A DNA stretch of 64,000 nt from Verrucomicrobiota bacterium (GTDB lineage Bacteria > Verrucomicrobiota > Verrucomicrobiia > Opitutales > Opitutaceae). Location: assembly GCA_016222805.1 (NCBI GenBank), contig JACRQG010000005.1, forward strand, positions 176,141-240,140, written 5' to 3'. Below are positions 14,709 to 32,602 of this stretch, one piece after another. The notes below the pieces were generated by a model, which ran no database searches, had not been told where the DNA came from, and saw only the letters and a program-made list of their open reading frames with translations. The first letter of the stretch is position 1, and every line of letters starts with the position of its first letter. A program made the translations under genes and the position numbers.

Positions 14709-17096
14709 ATGGCCAAAGTACTAATCGTCGATGATGAACGGAGTATTCGCCGCTCCCTGTGCGAGTTGCTCCACGATGCCGGGTACCAGGTGGCGGAGGC
14801 CGAGGATGCCGAGGCCGCGCTGGTTCACCTGCGGGCCGCCCCGTTCGATGTCGTGATCTCCGACATCATCCTGCCCCGGGTTTCCGGAGTCGAGTTGCTG
14901 CGGCAGCTCCAGGCCACCGCGCCGGAAGTGCAGGTGGTGATGATGACGGGCGAACCGACAGCCGAGACCGCCGCCTCCGCCCTGCGTCTCGGGGCGACCG
15001 ACTATCTTTTCAAGCCGATCACGAAGGCGGCCATCCTCCGCGCCACGGCCAACGCCGCGCGGATCAAATTCCTCGAGGACGCCCGCCGGCGGCTGGAGGA
15101 GGAGAACAAGGCCCACCGCGAGCGCCTGGAGCAGCTGGTCGCGGAGCGGACGTCGCAGCTGCGCGTCAGCGAAGGCCGGTACCGCAATCTGGTGGAGACC
15201 ACCTTCGACTGGGTCTGGGAAGTGGATGCCGACGCCCGCTATACCTATGCCAGCCCGCGGGTCCTGGACTTGCTGGGCTACCGGCCCGAGGAGGTGATCG
15301 GCCGCACGCCGTTCGACCTCATGCCCGAGGCGGAAGCCCGGCGCGTGCGGGCGATCTTCGAGCAGATCGCCGCGCGGCGGGATCCCTTTTCCGGGCTGGA
15401 GAACACGAACGTTCACCGCAACGGACAGCTGGTCATCCTCGAATCCAACGGCACCCCCGTGTTTTCCCCGACCGGGGAGTTTCTTGGCTACCATGGCATG
15501 GACCGCAACGTCACCGCCCGCAAACAGGCCGAGGAACAGCTGCGCAAGCTGGCCCGCGCGGTGGATCAATCTCCCGTCTCGATCGTGATCACCGATCGCG
15601 AAGGGAAGATCGAGTTCGTCAACCCGAAGTTCACCGAGGTCTCCGGTTACACGGCGGAGGAAGCGCTGGGCAACACCCCGCGGATCCAGAAGTCCGGCGA
15701 AACGCCCCTCGAGGAGTACCGCCGGCTGTGGGGGACGATCCTGGCCGGCGGGGAGTGGCGCGGCGAATTCCACAACAAACGCAAGAACGGCTCGCTCTTT
15801 TGGGAGACCGTCTCGATCTCCGCCATGCGCGATCCCGCCGGCGCGATCACCCATTTTGTCGCCGTGAAGGAGGACGTGACGGAGAAGAAGCAGTTGGAAG
15901 CGCGCTTCCTCCGCGCCCAGCGCGTGGAGAGCATCGGCAGCCTCGCCAGTGGCATCGCGCATGACCTCAACAACATGCTCACGCCGATCCTCATGGGTGC
16001 CGCCCTGCTGCGCAAGGCGACCTACGGTCCAAGGGACCAGGAACTCGTGCAGGTGATCGACTCGAGTACCCGCCGCGCCATCGACGTGGTGCGCCAGTTG
16101 CTCGGCTTCGCCCGCGGCCAGGAGAGCAGCGCGCAGCCGGTCCAGCTCCGGCATCTCGTGCGCGAGATGATCGCCATCGCCCGCGAGACCTTTCCGCGAA
16201 ATCTCCAATTCCAGGACCGCTGCGCCCCGGACTTGTGGCCGGTGCTGGCGAATGCCACGCAGATCCACCAGGTGTTGGTCAACCTCAGCGTCAACGCGCG
16301 CGACGCCATGCCCCAGGGCGGTACCCTCACCTTCCGCGCCGCCAACGTCACGCTCGACGAGCACTACGTGGCGATGCACCCGCAAGCCACCGTGGGCCGT
16401 TTTGTGCGCCTGGAGGTGCAGGATACCGGTGTCGGCATCCCCGAAGAATTGCGCGAGCGGGTCTTCGAGTCGTTCTTCACGACCAAGGGCGAGGGGCAGG
16501 GCACCGGCCTCGGCCTGACCACCGTGCTTGGGATCGTCCGCGACCACAAGGGCTTCATCTCCTTCACCTCCGAGGTTGGTCGTGGCACCACCTTCGAGAT
16601 TCACCTGCCGGCGATCCCGGGAGCCGCTTCCGGCGGCGACGCGGTCGCCGCCTCGGAAGCCCCGCGGGGGCAGGGTGAACTCATCCTGGTCGTGGACGAT
16701 GAACTGCCCGTCTGCGCCGCCACCTGCCTCACCCTCGAGGGGCATGGCTACCGGACCCTGCGGGCGCACAACGGCATCGACGCGCTTGCCGAGTTCTCCC
16801 GGCATCTGGGGCAGGTGCACGCCGTGGTCACCGACTTCATGATGCCGCTGATGGACGGCGTCACCCTTTGCCGGACCCTGCGGAAGCTCAGCCCGGGGAC
16901 CCCGCTGATCGTGTCGAGCGGGGGCCTGTTCGGAAAGGGTGGCGCCCGGACAATGGAGTCCTACCGCGAAATCGGCGTCCGGCACATCCTGCACAAACCC
17001 CACAATGCCGAGGTCCTCCTGCAGGCGCTGGCCGCCGAACTGCAGGTGAAGGCCGCGGTGCCGCCTCCCCCGGCGCCCGAAGAACCGAAGGCGTGA
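14709..17096 (+). CDS. Hybrid sensor kinase: REC-PAS-PAS-HisKA-HATPase-REC
   Basis: A 795-residue cytoplasmic hybrid kinase. The ATG at 14709 (MAKVLIVDDERS) starts a receiver domain with acceptor Asp52 (DVVISDIILPRVSG). Two PAS modules follow; the first holds RYRNLVETTFDWVWEVDADA and GYHGMDRNVTARK, the second SIVITDREGKIEFVNPKFTE. Then come HisKA with phosphoacceptor His418 (GSLASGIAHDLNNMLTPI), HATPase_c (FFTTKGEGQGTGLGLTT) and a second receiver (AVVTDFMMPLMDG). The terminal receiver lacks an output domain, so it probably acts in a phosphorelay or as a modulator. Its first PAS and its C-terminal half are closely related to the broken kinase at 30017-32602, which helps reconstruct what that gene lost. 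It is probably co-transcribed with the preceding kinase. Confidence 0.93.
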   Translation: MAKVLIVDDERSIRRSLCELLHDAGYQVAEAEDAEAALVHLRAAPFDVVISDIILPRVSGVELLRQLQATAPEVQVVMMTGEPTAETAASALRLGATDYLFKPITKAAILRATANAARIKFLEDARRRLEEENKAHRERLEQLVAERTSQLRVSEGRYRNLVETTFDWVWEVDADARYTYASPRVLDLLGYRPEEVIGRTPFDLMPEAEARRVRAIFEQIAARRDPFSGLENTNVHRNGQLVILESNGTPVFSPTGEFLGYHGMDRNVTARKQAEEQLRKLARAVDQSPVSIVITDREGKIEFVNPKFTEVSGYTAEEALGNTPRIQKSGETPLEEYRRLWGTILAGGEWRGEFHNKRKNGSLFWETVSISAMRDPAGAITHFVAVKEDVTEKKQLEARFLRAQRVESIGSLASGIAHDLNNMLTPILMGAALLRKATYGPRDQELVQVIDSSTRRAIDVVRQLLGFARGQESSAQPVQLRHLVREMIAIARETFPRNLQFQDRCAPDLWPVLANATQIHQVLVNLSVNARDAMPQGGTLTFRAANVTLDEHYVAMHPQATVGRFVRLEVQDTGVGIPEELRERVFESFFTTKGEGQGTGLGLTTVLGIVRDHKGFISFTSEVGRGTTFEIHLPAIPGAASGGDAVAASEAPRGQGELILVVDDELPVCAATCLTLEGHGYRTLRAHNGIDALAEFSRHLGQVHAVVTDFMMPLMDGVTLCRTLRKLSPGTPLIVSSGGLFGKGGARTMESYREIGVRHILHKPHNAEVLLQALAAELQVKAAVPPPPAPEEPKA

Positions 17097-17130: not shown

Positions 17131-17600
17131 GTAGGCGGGGCGACCCCGCCCCGCGCCCTTCGTAACGGAGCCAGCTTCCCGCGGGGCGAGGTCGCCCCGC
17201 CCACACCCGACCTCTTCGGAGAGACGCACCGCCCTCATCGAACCAGACCCGGGCACTCTCCACCTCACTGCGACACGGACGATCCTTCCGTACTCCACTG
17301 TAGGCGGGGCGACCCCGCCCCGCGCCCTTCGTGACGGAGCTCGCTTCCCGCGGGGCGAGGTCGCCCCGCCCACACCCGGGCTCTCCGGAGAAACGCACCG
17401 CCCTCACCGAGCCAGACCCAGGCGCTCTCCACCTCACCGCAACACGGCCGATCCTTCCGCACTCCGTTGTAGGCGGGACGACCCCGTCCCGCGCCTTTCG
17501 TGACGGAGCCCGCTTCCCGCGGGGCGAGGTCGCCCCGCCCACACCCGGCCGCTCCTGAGAAACGCACCGGCCTGACCGAACCAGCTCCGGGCGCTGTCAT
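17131..17600. repeat. Three tandem copies of a 169-bp unit built on family-A hairpins
   Basis: Units begin at 17131, 17300 and 17469, so the period is exactly 169 bases both times; the third copy fades near 17600. Each unit has a forward family-A arm (GTAGGCGGGGCGACCCCGCC), a short spacer, an inverted arm (GGCGAGGTCGCCCCGCCCAC) and about 90 bases of unique filler that is conserved between copies (for example the segments around GAGAAACGCACCGCCCTCA). The rest of 17097-17639 holds nothing else. The array lies between the convergent hybrid kinase and hydrolase genes. Confidence 0.9.
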
Positions 17601-29150: not shown

Positions 29151-30020
29151 ATGCACCGCCGCATGATCTTGTCTGCCTTCGGCTTCCTGGCCGTTCTGGG
29201 GCTCGTCGCGCTCTGGCGGACGGTCGCAGGCCGGGATGACTCGCTGGCACGGCTGCAGCGCTCCGGAGAGATCCGAATCGGATACGCCGCCGAGGAACCC
29301 TACGCCTTTGTCCGTCCCGGCGGCGAAGTCACCGGGGAAGCTCCGGAGATCGCCAAGGTCGTGGTGGCCCGCCTCGGCATCGCCCGGATTTCCTGGAGGT
29401 TGATCGCTTTCGAGGAGCTGATTTCCGAGCTGGAGGCCGGACGCATCGATGTGATTGCCGCCGCGATGTTCATCACGCGCGAGCGCGCCCGGCAGGTGCG
29501 CTTCTCGATCCCCACCTTCCAGGCCCGGCAGGCCTTGCTCGTTGCTCCGGGCAACCCCCTCCAGCTCCACTCCTATCAGGACGCGGTCGCACATCCCACG
29601 GCGCGGATCGCCTTGCTGGCGGGATCGGTGGAGGCGCCCTTGCTGCGCCTCCTCGGCCTGCCGGGTGATCGCCGAATCGCCGTTCCCGATGCCATCACGG
29701 GACGGGTGGCCGTGGAGTCCGGGCTGGCGGATGGCCTGGCCCTGTCCTCGCCGACCGTGCGTTGGATGGTCCGGTCGACGCCGAGCCCCACCACCGAAAT
29801 CGCCCAGCCGTTCCGACAGACCGCCGCCCCTTCCGGCGAGCTGCCCGGCGAAGGCGCGTTCGCCTTCCGGCACTCCGACCTCGCCCTGCACGCGGCGTGG
29901 AACCAGGTTCTTCAGGGCTTCCTCGGCAGCCGGGAACACCGGACGCTCGTCGCCGGCTTCGGGTTCACCCCGGACGAACTGCCCCGCGGAGCCAGCTCGA
30001 CGTCAATCGCTCCCCAATGA
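29151..30020 (+). CDS. Family-3 solute-binding protein coupled to a sensor kinase
   Basis: A 289-residue periplasmic binding protein of the HisJ/GlnH (SBP_bac_3) type. The ATG at 29151 starts a signal or signal-anchor helix (MILSAFGFLAVLGLVALW). The two-lobed binding domain follows: GEIRIGYAAEEPYAFVRPGG, the conserved EAPEIAKVVVARLG, and the hinge-proximal DVIAAAMFITRERARQVRFS, which matches the family pattern for polar amino acid or compatible-solute binding. No ABC permease or ATPase is nearby. Instead the stop codon overlaps the start of a membrane sensor kinase (ATGA, 30017-30020), so the protein probably presents a ligand to that kinase rather than feeding a transporter. That sensory role is inference. 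Confidence 0.85.
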   Translation: MHRRMILSAFGFLAVLGLVALWRTVAGRDDSLARLQRSGEIRIGYAAEEPYAFVRPGGEVTGEAPEIAKVVVARLGIARISWRLIAFEELISELEAGRIDVIAAAMFITRERARQVRFSIPTFQARQALLVAPGNPLQLHSYQDAVAHPTARIALLAGSVEAPLLRLLGLPGDRRIAVPDAITGRVAVESGLADGLALSSPTVRWMVRSTPSPTTEIAQPFRQTAAPSGELPGEGAFAFRHSDLALHAAWNQVLQGFLGSREHRTLVAGFGFTPDELPRGASSTSIAPQ

Positions 30021-31573
30021 CACCGGTCGCCGACTCGCCGTCATCCGCCGTCCCCTCCGGTCCAGGATCCACCGTCGTCGTCTACCGTTGGTTCTGGGCC
30101 GCCCTGGCCGCCGCCCTGCTGGTGACCGGCCTGGTCGGCTGGCTGCACTTCCAGCAGCGCCAGACGTTCGAACGCGAAACCGCCCAGCAGCGCCACGTCC
30201 GCCAGGCACGGGTCAATCTCAACCGCGGATACCTCCTCGCCAGCCTGACCTCGGACCCGGCCTTCCCTTTCAACCGCGACGAAGGCCTGGCGCTCATCCG
30301 GCAGTCGATCGCGGATTTTGCGTCGACGCTGAAGGATGTCGCACCCGACGTCCGGCAGACGGCCGCGGCGTTTCGAACCCTCGCGGGGGACCTCGATACC
30401 GCCCTGGCCCGGTGGGAAACCGAAGGCAGCCCGGAGAATGCCGCCGCGTTGCGCATCGCGTTCGGCCGCATGGACCGCCAGGCCGCCCTGCTCGACGCCG
30501 CCAACGAACGCCAGCTCCGCGAACTCTCCGCGCGGCAGCTGCGGACCTTCGTGCTGGCCGTGGGCGGCGCGGCCCTGCTCTTCGCCTCCGGCCTCGCCGC
30601 CATCGTGGTGGCGGCCCGGGCCAGTGGGCGGGAGGAAGCCGCGCGCCGGCGCGGCGAGGAACAGGCGGCCGCGGCCCACGCCGAGCGCGCGCGCCTTCTG
30701 GTCGAGGCCGAGCAGGCGCACCAGGCCCTGCTCAAGGTCGTCGCCGAGCAGCAGGCCGCGGAAGCCGCGCTGCGCAAGAGCGAGACGCGCTACCGCGGCC
30801 TGGTGGAAACCTCGTTCGACTGGGTGTGGGAGGTCGACACCGACTGCCGCTACACCTACGCCAGCCCGCGAGTGCGCGAACTGCTCGGGTACGACCCCAC
30901 CGAGGTGTTGGGGCGGACCCCGTTCGACTTCATGCCCGAGGCCGAGGCCCAGCGCGTGCGGCGCGCCTTCGAAGCTCTCATCCCCGGCCGGCAACCCATC
31001 ATCGCCCTCGAAAACACCAACCTTCATCGGGACGGCCGGCTCGTCGTGGTCGAAACCAACGGGGTGCCCATCCTCGGTCCCGACGGGACCTGGCTGGGCT
31101 ACCACGGCATGGACCGCGACATCACCGCGCGCCGGGCCGCGGAAAAGGTTCTCCGCCTGCGCGGCGCGGCCCTTGAGGCGGCGGCAAACGCCATCGTGAT
31201 CACGGACCGTTCCGGCGTGATCGAATGGGCCAACCCAGCCTTTACCGCGTTGTCGGGCTGGACCCTGGCGGAGGCCGCGGGGCACAACCTGCACGAGCTG
31301 GTCAACTCGGGCCACCACGACGCGGCCTTCTTCAGCCGGATGTGGGACGACATCCTGGCGGGGAAGGTCTGGCGGGGAGAAGTCGTCAACCGCCGCCAGG
31401 ACGGCGTCGTGCGCACGGAGGAGATGACCCTCACGCCGCTGGCCGACGAGAACGGCGTCGTGCAGTACTGCATCGCAATCAAGCAGGACATCACCGAGCG
31501 CAAGACCCTCGACACCCAAAGCCGCCACGCGCAGCGGATGGAGGCGATCGGCACCGCTTCGGTCGCGCCGTAG
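30017..31573 (+). pseudogene. Membrane hybrid sensor kinase, 5' part, cut in HisKA
   Basis: This is the front half of a two-component kinase closely related to the hybrid at 14709. It has a membrane helix (WFWAALAAALLVTGLVGW), a periplasmic helical sensor of about 130 residues, a second helix (TFVLAVGGAALLFASGLAAI), a coiled linker and two PAS modules (RYRGLVETSFDWVWEVDTDC and NAIVITDRSGVIEWANPAFT). The HisKA domain begins normally (HAQRMEAIGT) and then ends abruptly as ASVAP and a stop at 31571-31573, because the following 275 bases are foreign antisense sequence. The phosphoacceptor His, which follows GTLASG in relatives, is missing. The gene start overlaps the solute-binding protein stop. 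As it stands it cannot work as a kinase; an assembly chimera remains possible. Confidence 0.88.
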
Positions 31574-31830
31574 GGGGTGTGGATCTCGGCGCCTTCGGCG
31601 AGCAGGGGCTGAAAAAGCGCGATGGTGCGCGCCTGCACCGGCGCCCCGGCCGAGATCACCCGCTTCAAAGAGGGCAGCCGCAGGCCCCGCGAGCTTCCGT
31701 AGGCGCCCAAGCGGTCCAGCAGCGCCGGCGAGGCGAACATGTTGGTGACGCCCTGATCGGAGATGGCCTCGATCAGCCGCTCGGGGTTGGCCCGGGCCGG
31801 CCGGGTGGGGTCCATCTCCGGCACCACCAA
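31543..31830 (-). pseudogene. Antisense fragment of an OleC-like AMP-dependent acyl ligase
   Basis: Read on the minus strand, about 90 residues match the middle of OleC/fatty-acid AMP-ligase proteins: [60 protein letters not shown] and EIHTPYGATEAVPIASI. The last holds the YGATE adenylation motif. Neither the beginning nor the end of such a protein (normally well over 500 residues) is present, so this is an insert, not a gene. It sits exactly where the HisKA and early HATPase of the surrounding kinase should be. At the left junction, the 12-18 bases ending at 31554 fit both the kinase motif MEAIGT on plus and the ligase motif VPIASI on minus. Confidence 0.8.
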
Positions 31831-32602
31831 CCTCTGCGTCAACGCCCGCGACGCGATGCCGGAGGGCGGTCATCTGACCCTGCGGGCCGCCGTGGTAAAC
31901 CTGCCGGCGGGCGCCCCGGAATTGCCGCCGGGCGTCAGTCCGGGGACCTTTGTCCGAATCGAGGTGGACGACACCGGTCGCGGGATCCCGCTGGAGATTC
32001 GCCACCGCATCTTTGATCCCTTCTTCACCACCAAGCCCCTGGGCAAGGGCACCGGCCTCGGGCTGTCGACCGCGCAGGGCATCGTCCGCGGCCACGGTGG
32101 CTTCATCACGCTCGATTCCGAACCCGGACAGGGCTCCACCTTTGGCGTGTACCTGCCGGCGGACGCGGACGCCGAAGCCGCCCCGGCCATCGAAGCCGCT
32201 CCGCGGGCAACGACGGGGGCGGGGCGCACCCTCCTCGTGGTCGACGACGAGCGGCCAGTCCGTCGGGCGTTCAGCCTGCTGCTCGAGCAGCACGGCTACC
32301 GCGTCCTGACCGCGGTCAACGGCAAGGATGGGCTCGCGCAGTTCCTGGAACACCGCGCGGCGATCCGTCTCGTGCTCACCGACCTGATGATGCCCGTGAT
32401 GAACGGCCTCGCCCTCGTGAAGGCCATCCGCGCCGTGGATCCCGACATCCCCCTCGTGGCGGCCAGCGGCCTCGGCGATCTGGAGAAAGGCCCCGAGCTG
32501 GCCGCGCTGGGGGTGAGGCGCATCCTGTCCAAGCCTTGTTCCGCGGAGACGCTCCTGGAGGCGATCGAGGAGCAACTCGGCGCCGGAGAGACACCGCGCT
32601 GA
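31827..32602 (+). pseudogene. Hybrid sensor kinase, 3' part: HATPase core and receiver
   Basis: The second half of the kinase begun at 30017. It resumes in the N-box of the HATPase domain ([14 protein letters not shown]), continues with [10 protein letters not shown] and [17 protein letters not shown], and ends in a receiver domain with a normal acceptor site ([13 protein letters not shown], conserved Lys in [11 protein letters not shown]). An open frame from 31763 would give a 279-residue product, but its first 22 residues are antisense ligase sequence. Compared with the paralogue at 14709, about 113 residues are lost, including the phosphoacceptor His. The receiver itself looks intact and could still be made if translation restarts. 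Confidence 0.85.

Follow-up and report, generated by a model that had tools for sequence, protein, structure and literature searches.

An inverted OleC-type gene fragment in place of the phosphoacceptor region of an Opitutaceae hybrid histidine kinase, a probable case of microhomology-primed illegitimate replacement

In double illegitimate recombination of Acinetobacter baylyi and its short-patch form (SPDIR), part of the chromosome is exchanged for a short non-homologous segment, with little or no homology at both ends. Double illegitimate recombination in this species was reportedly the subject of Hulter and Wackernagel in 2008, and the main report of SPDIR is said to be a PNAS paper of 2016. 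The 2008 paper is cited in the reference lists of PMC7371106, PMC13344027 and PMC8116780, and the term SPDIR was not found in the main text of PMC5312590 and PMC8116780. According to PMC7371106, ompA of Acinetobacter baumannii contains a short, foreign-looking, high-GC fragment ascribed to illegitimate recombination.

Here we describe a locus in a 64,000-nucleotide stretch of an Opitutaceae assembly (the window, positions numbered from its first base), in which 273 bp of non-homologous DNA stand where 339 bp are expected in a PAS-PAS hybrid histidine kinase gene. Short replacement by non-homologous DNA is common to this patch and SPDIR of A. baylyi; the patch differs in its junctions (up to 18 bp and 1 bp), its 273-bp length, its host family and in being inferred from one assembly. 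The A. baumannii ompA fragment, as described in PMC7371106, belongs to the protein, occurs in many strains and is thought beneficial, whereas the kinase patch breaks its gene and was seen once. As a kind of event, the patch would be a further case of the capture of a short fragment without long homology.

The kinase locus (30017-32602, plus strand) consists of two halves in one reading frame. Its start at 30017 overlaps by four bases the stop of a gene for a family 3 solute-binding protein (29151..30020, plus strand; taken from the ORF list, PF00497, 6.5e-22), probably its operon partner; this gene and one for a beta-lactamase-fold protein were the neighbours tested. The sensor half (30017..31555, plus strand) comprises an N-terminal region and two PAS domains (PAS_4, PAS, PAS_9) and ends in QRMEAIGT, the start of HisKA. 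The frame then enters ASVAP and is closed by a TAG (31571..31573, plus strand), the first of four in-frame stops. The catalytic half (31829..32602, plus strand), in the same frame as the sensor half, contains HATPase_c from the N box onwards and a receiver domain. Pfam searches (E up to 0.1) with the pieces 30017-31570 and 31763-32599 matched PAS domains in the former and, for the catalytic half, HATPase_c (PF02518, 4.5e-20), entered at profile position 11 of 111, and the receiver (Response_reg, PF00072, 1e-21). HisKA with its phosphoacceptor His was matched in neither piece. Pfam and frame thus confirmed the initial annotation, by which the kinase stops within HisKA (MEAIGT, ASVAP, stop) and resumes at the HATPase N box.

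Since the phosphoacceptor domain is lost and four stops inside the patch interrupt the kinase reading frame, the patched gene would be a pseudogene, encoding a truncated sensor at most. Its predicted products would be a sensor stopping five residues past MEAIGT and a catalytic half without the DHp region. A working split kinase was rejected, HisKA being in neither piece, and a working hybrid kinase is not supported on the same ground and on account of the in-frame stops.

The DNA between the two halves is an inverted fragment of an OleC-type gene (31556..31828, minus strand). The 102 residues read on the minus strand from 31537-31842 matched AMP-binding (Pfam, 3.2e-11), the PRK09274 fatty acid CoA ligase model (9.2e-38) and the OleC models NF045786 (2.7e-31) and NF045785 (1.5e-28); as the piece is so short, the scores on the OleC models fall far under the cut-offs set for whole proteins. 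The patch covers OleC model positions 232-335, and its minus strand encodes, free of stops, the central part of an OleC-type ligase. A seven-state codon-usage HMM, for which a different region of the contig (C44:1-120000) had served as training sequence and which was not told of the patch, gave the same layout without recourse to homology: a minus-strand coding block at 31534-31789, flanked by two plus-strand blocks that share a frame. AMP-binding, PRK09274, OleC models and codon HMM all agree with the inverted OleC fragment that had been proposed in the kinase; its extent, given as 275 bases, is corrected to a patch proper of 273 bp. To OleC (olefin beta-lactone synthetase) the patch is related by homology; unlike a complete oleC gene, it has only about 100 of the roughly 550 positions and lies inverted within a different gene. 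Its GC content is 0.72 (third-position GC 0.93), against 0.71 and 0.70 (0.90 and 0.87) in the kinase halves. Neither the halves nor the patch show decay, and the sequence is free of Ns across the 64-kb window, patch included.

The lost kinase sequence was gauged on three PAS hybrid histidine kinases of the same genome, at C38:183431 (L056), C6:218340 (L057) and window position 14709 (L059). PAS, HATPase_c and receiver domains are common to these paralogues and the patched kinase, and HisKA is found by Pfam in the paralogues only. Residues 256-513 of the sensor half are 69, 65 and 53% identical to them, and a search of the own genome with the sensor half returned 45 PAS-protein matches, with the same three among them as close paralogues (67, 61 and 51%). 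In each paralogue 113 residues (339 bp) lie between IGT/IGS and NLxV, where the patched kinase has 273 bp, in agreement with the loss of about 113 residues, including the His, noted initially. The kinase flanks of the patch are collinear with all three. The nearest paralogue is L056 for the sensor half (69%) and L057 for the catalytic half (57%). A catalytic half derived from a different kinase was also considered; there was no sign of this, both halves being far from all three paralogues.

At the left junction, kinase identity includes the ACC at 31555; it is taken up again with the kinase codon AAC at 31829. The 18 bases ATGGAGGCGATCGGCACC (31538..31555, shared by both strands) encode MEAIGT of the kinase on the plus strand and VPIxSI of OleC on the minus strand, residues that many members of the nearest OleC clade show after YGATEA. 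This 18-mer is matched at 18/18 positions in L057, 16/18 in L056 and 13/18 in L059. Since it is unchanged in the unpatched L057, the microhomology on the kinase side is older than the patch. At the equivalent place, eight OleC relatives, hand-picked from the 80 loci described below, agree with the 18-mer at 13, 11, 12, 12, 13, 13, 11 and 10 of 18 positions. A score of at least 12/18 was thus reached by five of the eight, versus 32 of 136,464 pairs (2.3e-4) in a null in which the same OleC 18-mers were compared, position by position and in both strand orientations, with the genes of the three paralogues, the true site still included. Judged from these alignments, a usable left microhomology of up to 18 bp will have stood before the event. 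At the right junction, the C at 31828 is both the last base of OleC similarity and the first of kinase similarity, which leaves 1 bp common to kinase paralogues and OleC relatives. In SPDIR terms, the junction microhomology is up to 18 bp on the left and 1 bp on the right, as scored against OleC relatives. The long left microhomology of the initial annotation therefore stood (18/18 in L057), its boundary moving from 31537-31554 to 31538-31555, while the 6-7 bases claimed on the right were reduced to a single one.

The host genome (G000; 7,906,178 bases in 51 contigs, 95.6% complete, 2.75% contamination) was searched for a donor. No second copy of the 294 bases 31537-31830 is present in the own 7.9 Mb assembly. 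The identical intact oleC that the initial annotation had thought of elsewhere in the genome was not found, the own OleC at C38:218473 being 46% identical over the fragment. A donor in the own genome was rejected on protein matches of only 46% and 36%; at the DNA level there were just two short matches, of 34 and 45 bases, of which one falls in the own OleC and the other in an unrelated frame. By eye, the own OleC frame (L058, C38:217000-221500) is directly followed by an OleD-like frame.

Wider searches gave only distant relatives. The fragment was matched in 24 of 27 genomes of the genus (own included), with best identities of 40-49% in the others, and in 238 of 252 genomes of the family (own included), where the best other by E-value reached 57% among the matches listed. 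Of 387 genomes drawn from the phylum, 130 had a match, and the highest other identity was 55%. A plasmid-borne donor was rejected, nine plasmid records being matched, all below 60% identity. A contig scan of GTDB r220 yielded at least 588 candidate stretches, of which 567 were confirmed and the best 80 kept; Desulfobacterales and 'Deltaproteobacteria' MAGs came top among these 80, with L061 at 72%. For the identified donor that belongs to SPDIR, this locus thus offers no near copy in its own genome, 57% in the family among the matches listed and 72% in GTDB among the best 80 of 567.

To place the patch, we used an OleC tree of 63 rows and 97 columns, which held 54 of the 80 GTDB loci, hand-picked, and from which eight further family and genus rows were absent. 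The patch fell in a 32-row clade, mostly Desulfobacterales by title (100/96), in a tree whose bootstrap had not settled and whose rows titled only Deltaproteobacteria are Myxococcota in taxonomy. Within this clade its neighbours were L061 and L062 (88/69), and its own branch had a length of 0.57. Tree and searches together ruled out the family's usual OleC as donor. The other 31 clade loci have GC contents of 0.31-0.61 versus 0.72 in the patch. This host-like GC counts against a simple Desulfobacterales donor and points either to a GC-rich genome with an OleC of the clade type or to a resident, host-adapted copy.

On a remnant or resident-donor reading, either a longer, laterally acquired ole segment would once have interrupted the kinase and been cut by deletions to 273 bp, or an intragenomic template switch would have been made from an oleC that is lost or unassembled. 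The host-like GC and the long branch (0.57) would suit such a host-adapted copy, the donor may be missing at a completeness of 95.6%, and the family member G443 has a second OleC. Yet nothing beyond 273 bp is left, both ends abut kinase codons, and among the 27 genus genomes no other match exceeds 49%; we consider a remnant or resident donor very unlikely. G443 thus carries two OleC genes, the usual one and a second, more distant one, with 57% and 45% identity to the patch; in the tree the second groups with a large multi-phylum set and not with the usual family OleC. Over 3,294 bp, the G443 locus L164 does not differ from L102, a locus of an Opitutus MAG. No clear unpatched orthologous locus was found with the sensor half as query in 19 genomes, with the solute-binding gene in 27 or with the kinase N-terminus in 252 (own included each time; best other 34% with the N-terminus).

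The initial annotation had left the choice between true replacement and chimera open, and rightly so. In an assembly or library chimera, the kinase would be intact and the oleC of another organism would have been joined to it via the common left stretch, by a short k-mer walk, a template-switched library molecule or a mis-closed gap. The absence of the donor from the genome, with the nearest clade being that of another phylum, speaks for a chimera, as do the lack of decay in patch and kinase halves and the similar lengths inserted and lost (273 and 339). So does the 16S gene of the same assembly. The one 16S match in the genome (1799 bp; L168 2180-3299, C27:225089-226208) contains 27 Ns between two copies of one stretch (76/85 identical), and a perfect 122-bp tandem duplication. 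This gene is misassembled. Perhaps 16S copies from two organisms were mixed. Their divergence hints that the sample itself was mixed, and such a sample could contain oleC DNA of foreign origin.

Against a chimera, two joins would be needed, which together lead back into the same gene with order, orientation and frame all preserved, and the 1 bp at the right join is too little for a k-mer collision. The behaviour of the assembler was surveyed in stretches totalling 1,585,766 bases (1.586 Mb, 20% of 7.9 Mb), which contained ten N runs of 5-92 bases. At six of the ten the flanks overlap exactly, by 6, 7, 9, 10, 18 or 33 bases; the others comprise one with a 19-base overlap at 95%, the 16S gap with its diverged copies and two without overlap. 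Among 1000 control sites, a single one had an overlap of at least 5 bases. Directly before window base 1 lies a scaffold gap (C44:176049-176140), a run of 92 Ns between flanks with a 6-base overlap. It appears from the gap flanks that the assembler left short overlaps as Ns, neither merged nor filled, and a chimera has to contend with seven gaps of the ten at which overlaps of 6-33 bases, exact in six and at 95% in one, were kept as Ns. No scaffold gap or merged overlap is seen at a patch junction, the window holding no N and the right join a 1-bp overlap. Since the patch is N-free, its right join has 1 bp in common and overlaps elsewhere were kept as Ns, spanning reads are the simpler cause, presuming that no other gap closing was done. 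A scaffolding origin of such a join is unlikely.

The surroundings of the gaps likewise speak against a chimera. The codon HMM placed an opposite-strand tail beside none of the nine non-rRNA gaps; a same-strand frame change lies 219 bases from the gap at C44:267621, and the gap at C38:348682 is in weakly coding sequence. In the 1.586 Mb the HMM flagged 18 opposite-strand blocks of 60-800 bp, of which only the kinase patch is gene-breaking. Read by eye, the other 17 represent small genes, sequence between genes, or unusual parts of a single gene that stays open. Many patches of the kinase type were thus ruled out for opposite-strand coding blocks in the 1.586 Mb, the class that the scan covered. 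Overall the assembly evidence leans to a real replacement, and a chimera seems rather unlikely, though clearly less so than a resident donor.

A dispersed GC-rich repeat with the cores GTAGGCGGGGCGACC and GAGGTCGCCCCGC and their complements was also seen in the window, at 1290, 1390, 17131-17526, 22110 and 39933, its copies partly 169 bp apart. In C44, 17 of 18 matches lie in HMM non-coding sequence, versus 11% of C44 overall. We take this repeat to be REP-like.

Our favoured reading, which we hold to be probable, is a real event of double illegitimate replacement, primed by microhomology, in which a short oleC fragment that was foreign (or has since been lost) left a dead kinase behind. The patched molecule would then exist in the cell. 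The source would be a short single-stranded piece of a Desulfobacterales-type oleC, absent from the assembled genome. This strand may have annealed at the MEAIGT codons of the kinase via the microhomology of up to 18 bp, so that transfer would run from oleC into the kinase. After 273 bp of copying or incorporation, it would have been rejoined to the same kinase gene at a point 339 bp along, where the two share about 1 bp. Against this reading stand the near lack of microhomology at the right end, the host-like GC of the patch and the failure to find a clear unpatched orthologue. By analogy with double illegitimate recombination in A. baylyi, the layout (unequal lengths, one long and one minimal microhomology, an inverted startless fragment) fits microhomology-primed template switching or short-single-strand incorporation. 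ComEC has one match in the genome (C50:66368-67219) and was also found in 10 of 14 control genomes; being common in bacteria, it does not show DNA uptake by the host. More tentatively, and with somewhat less than even confidence, the patch may be the fossil of a cross-phylum capture, in which about 270 bases of environmental oleC from a donor with a Desulfobacterales-type OleC took the place of part of a chromosomal gene in an Opitutaceae-family genome by microhomology alone.

If the patch were an artefact, it would be a warning that chimeric patches without Ns can lie behind hybrid or split genes when an assembly has been scaffolded. If the replacement is real, it would show cleanly, with one microhomology and the two junctions in view, how a short foreign fragment takes the place of chromosomal DNA without long homology. 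Such short-fragment replacements can create mosaic genes that are hard to recognise. Should the cross-phylum capture be true, short-patch double illegitimate recombination with foreign DNA would occur outside the laboratory and among the Opitutaceae.
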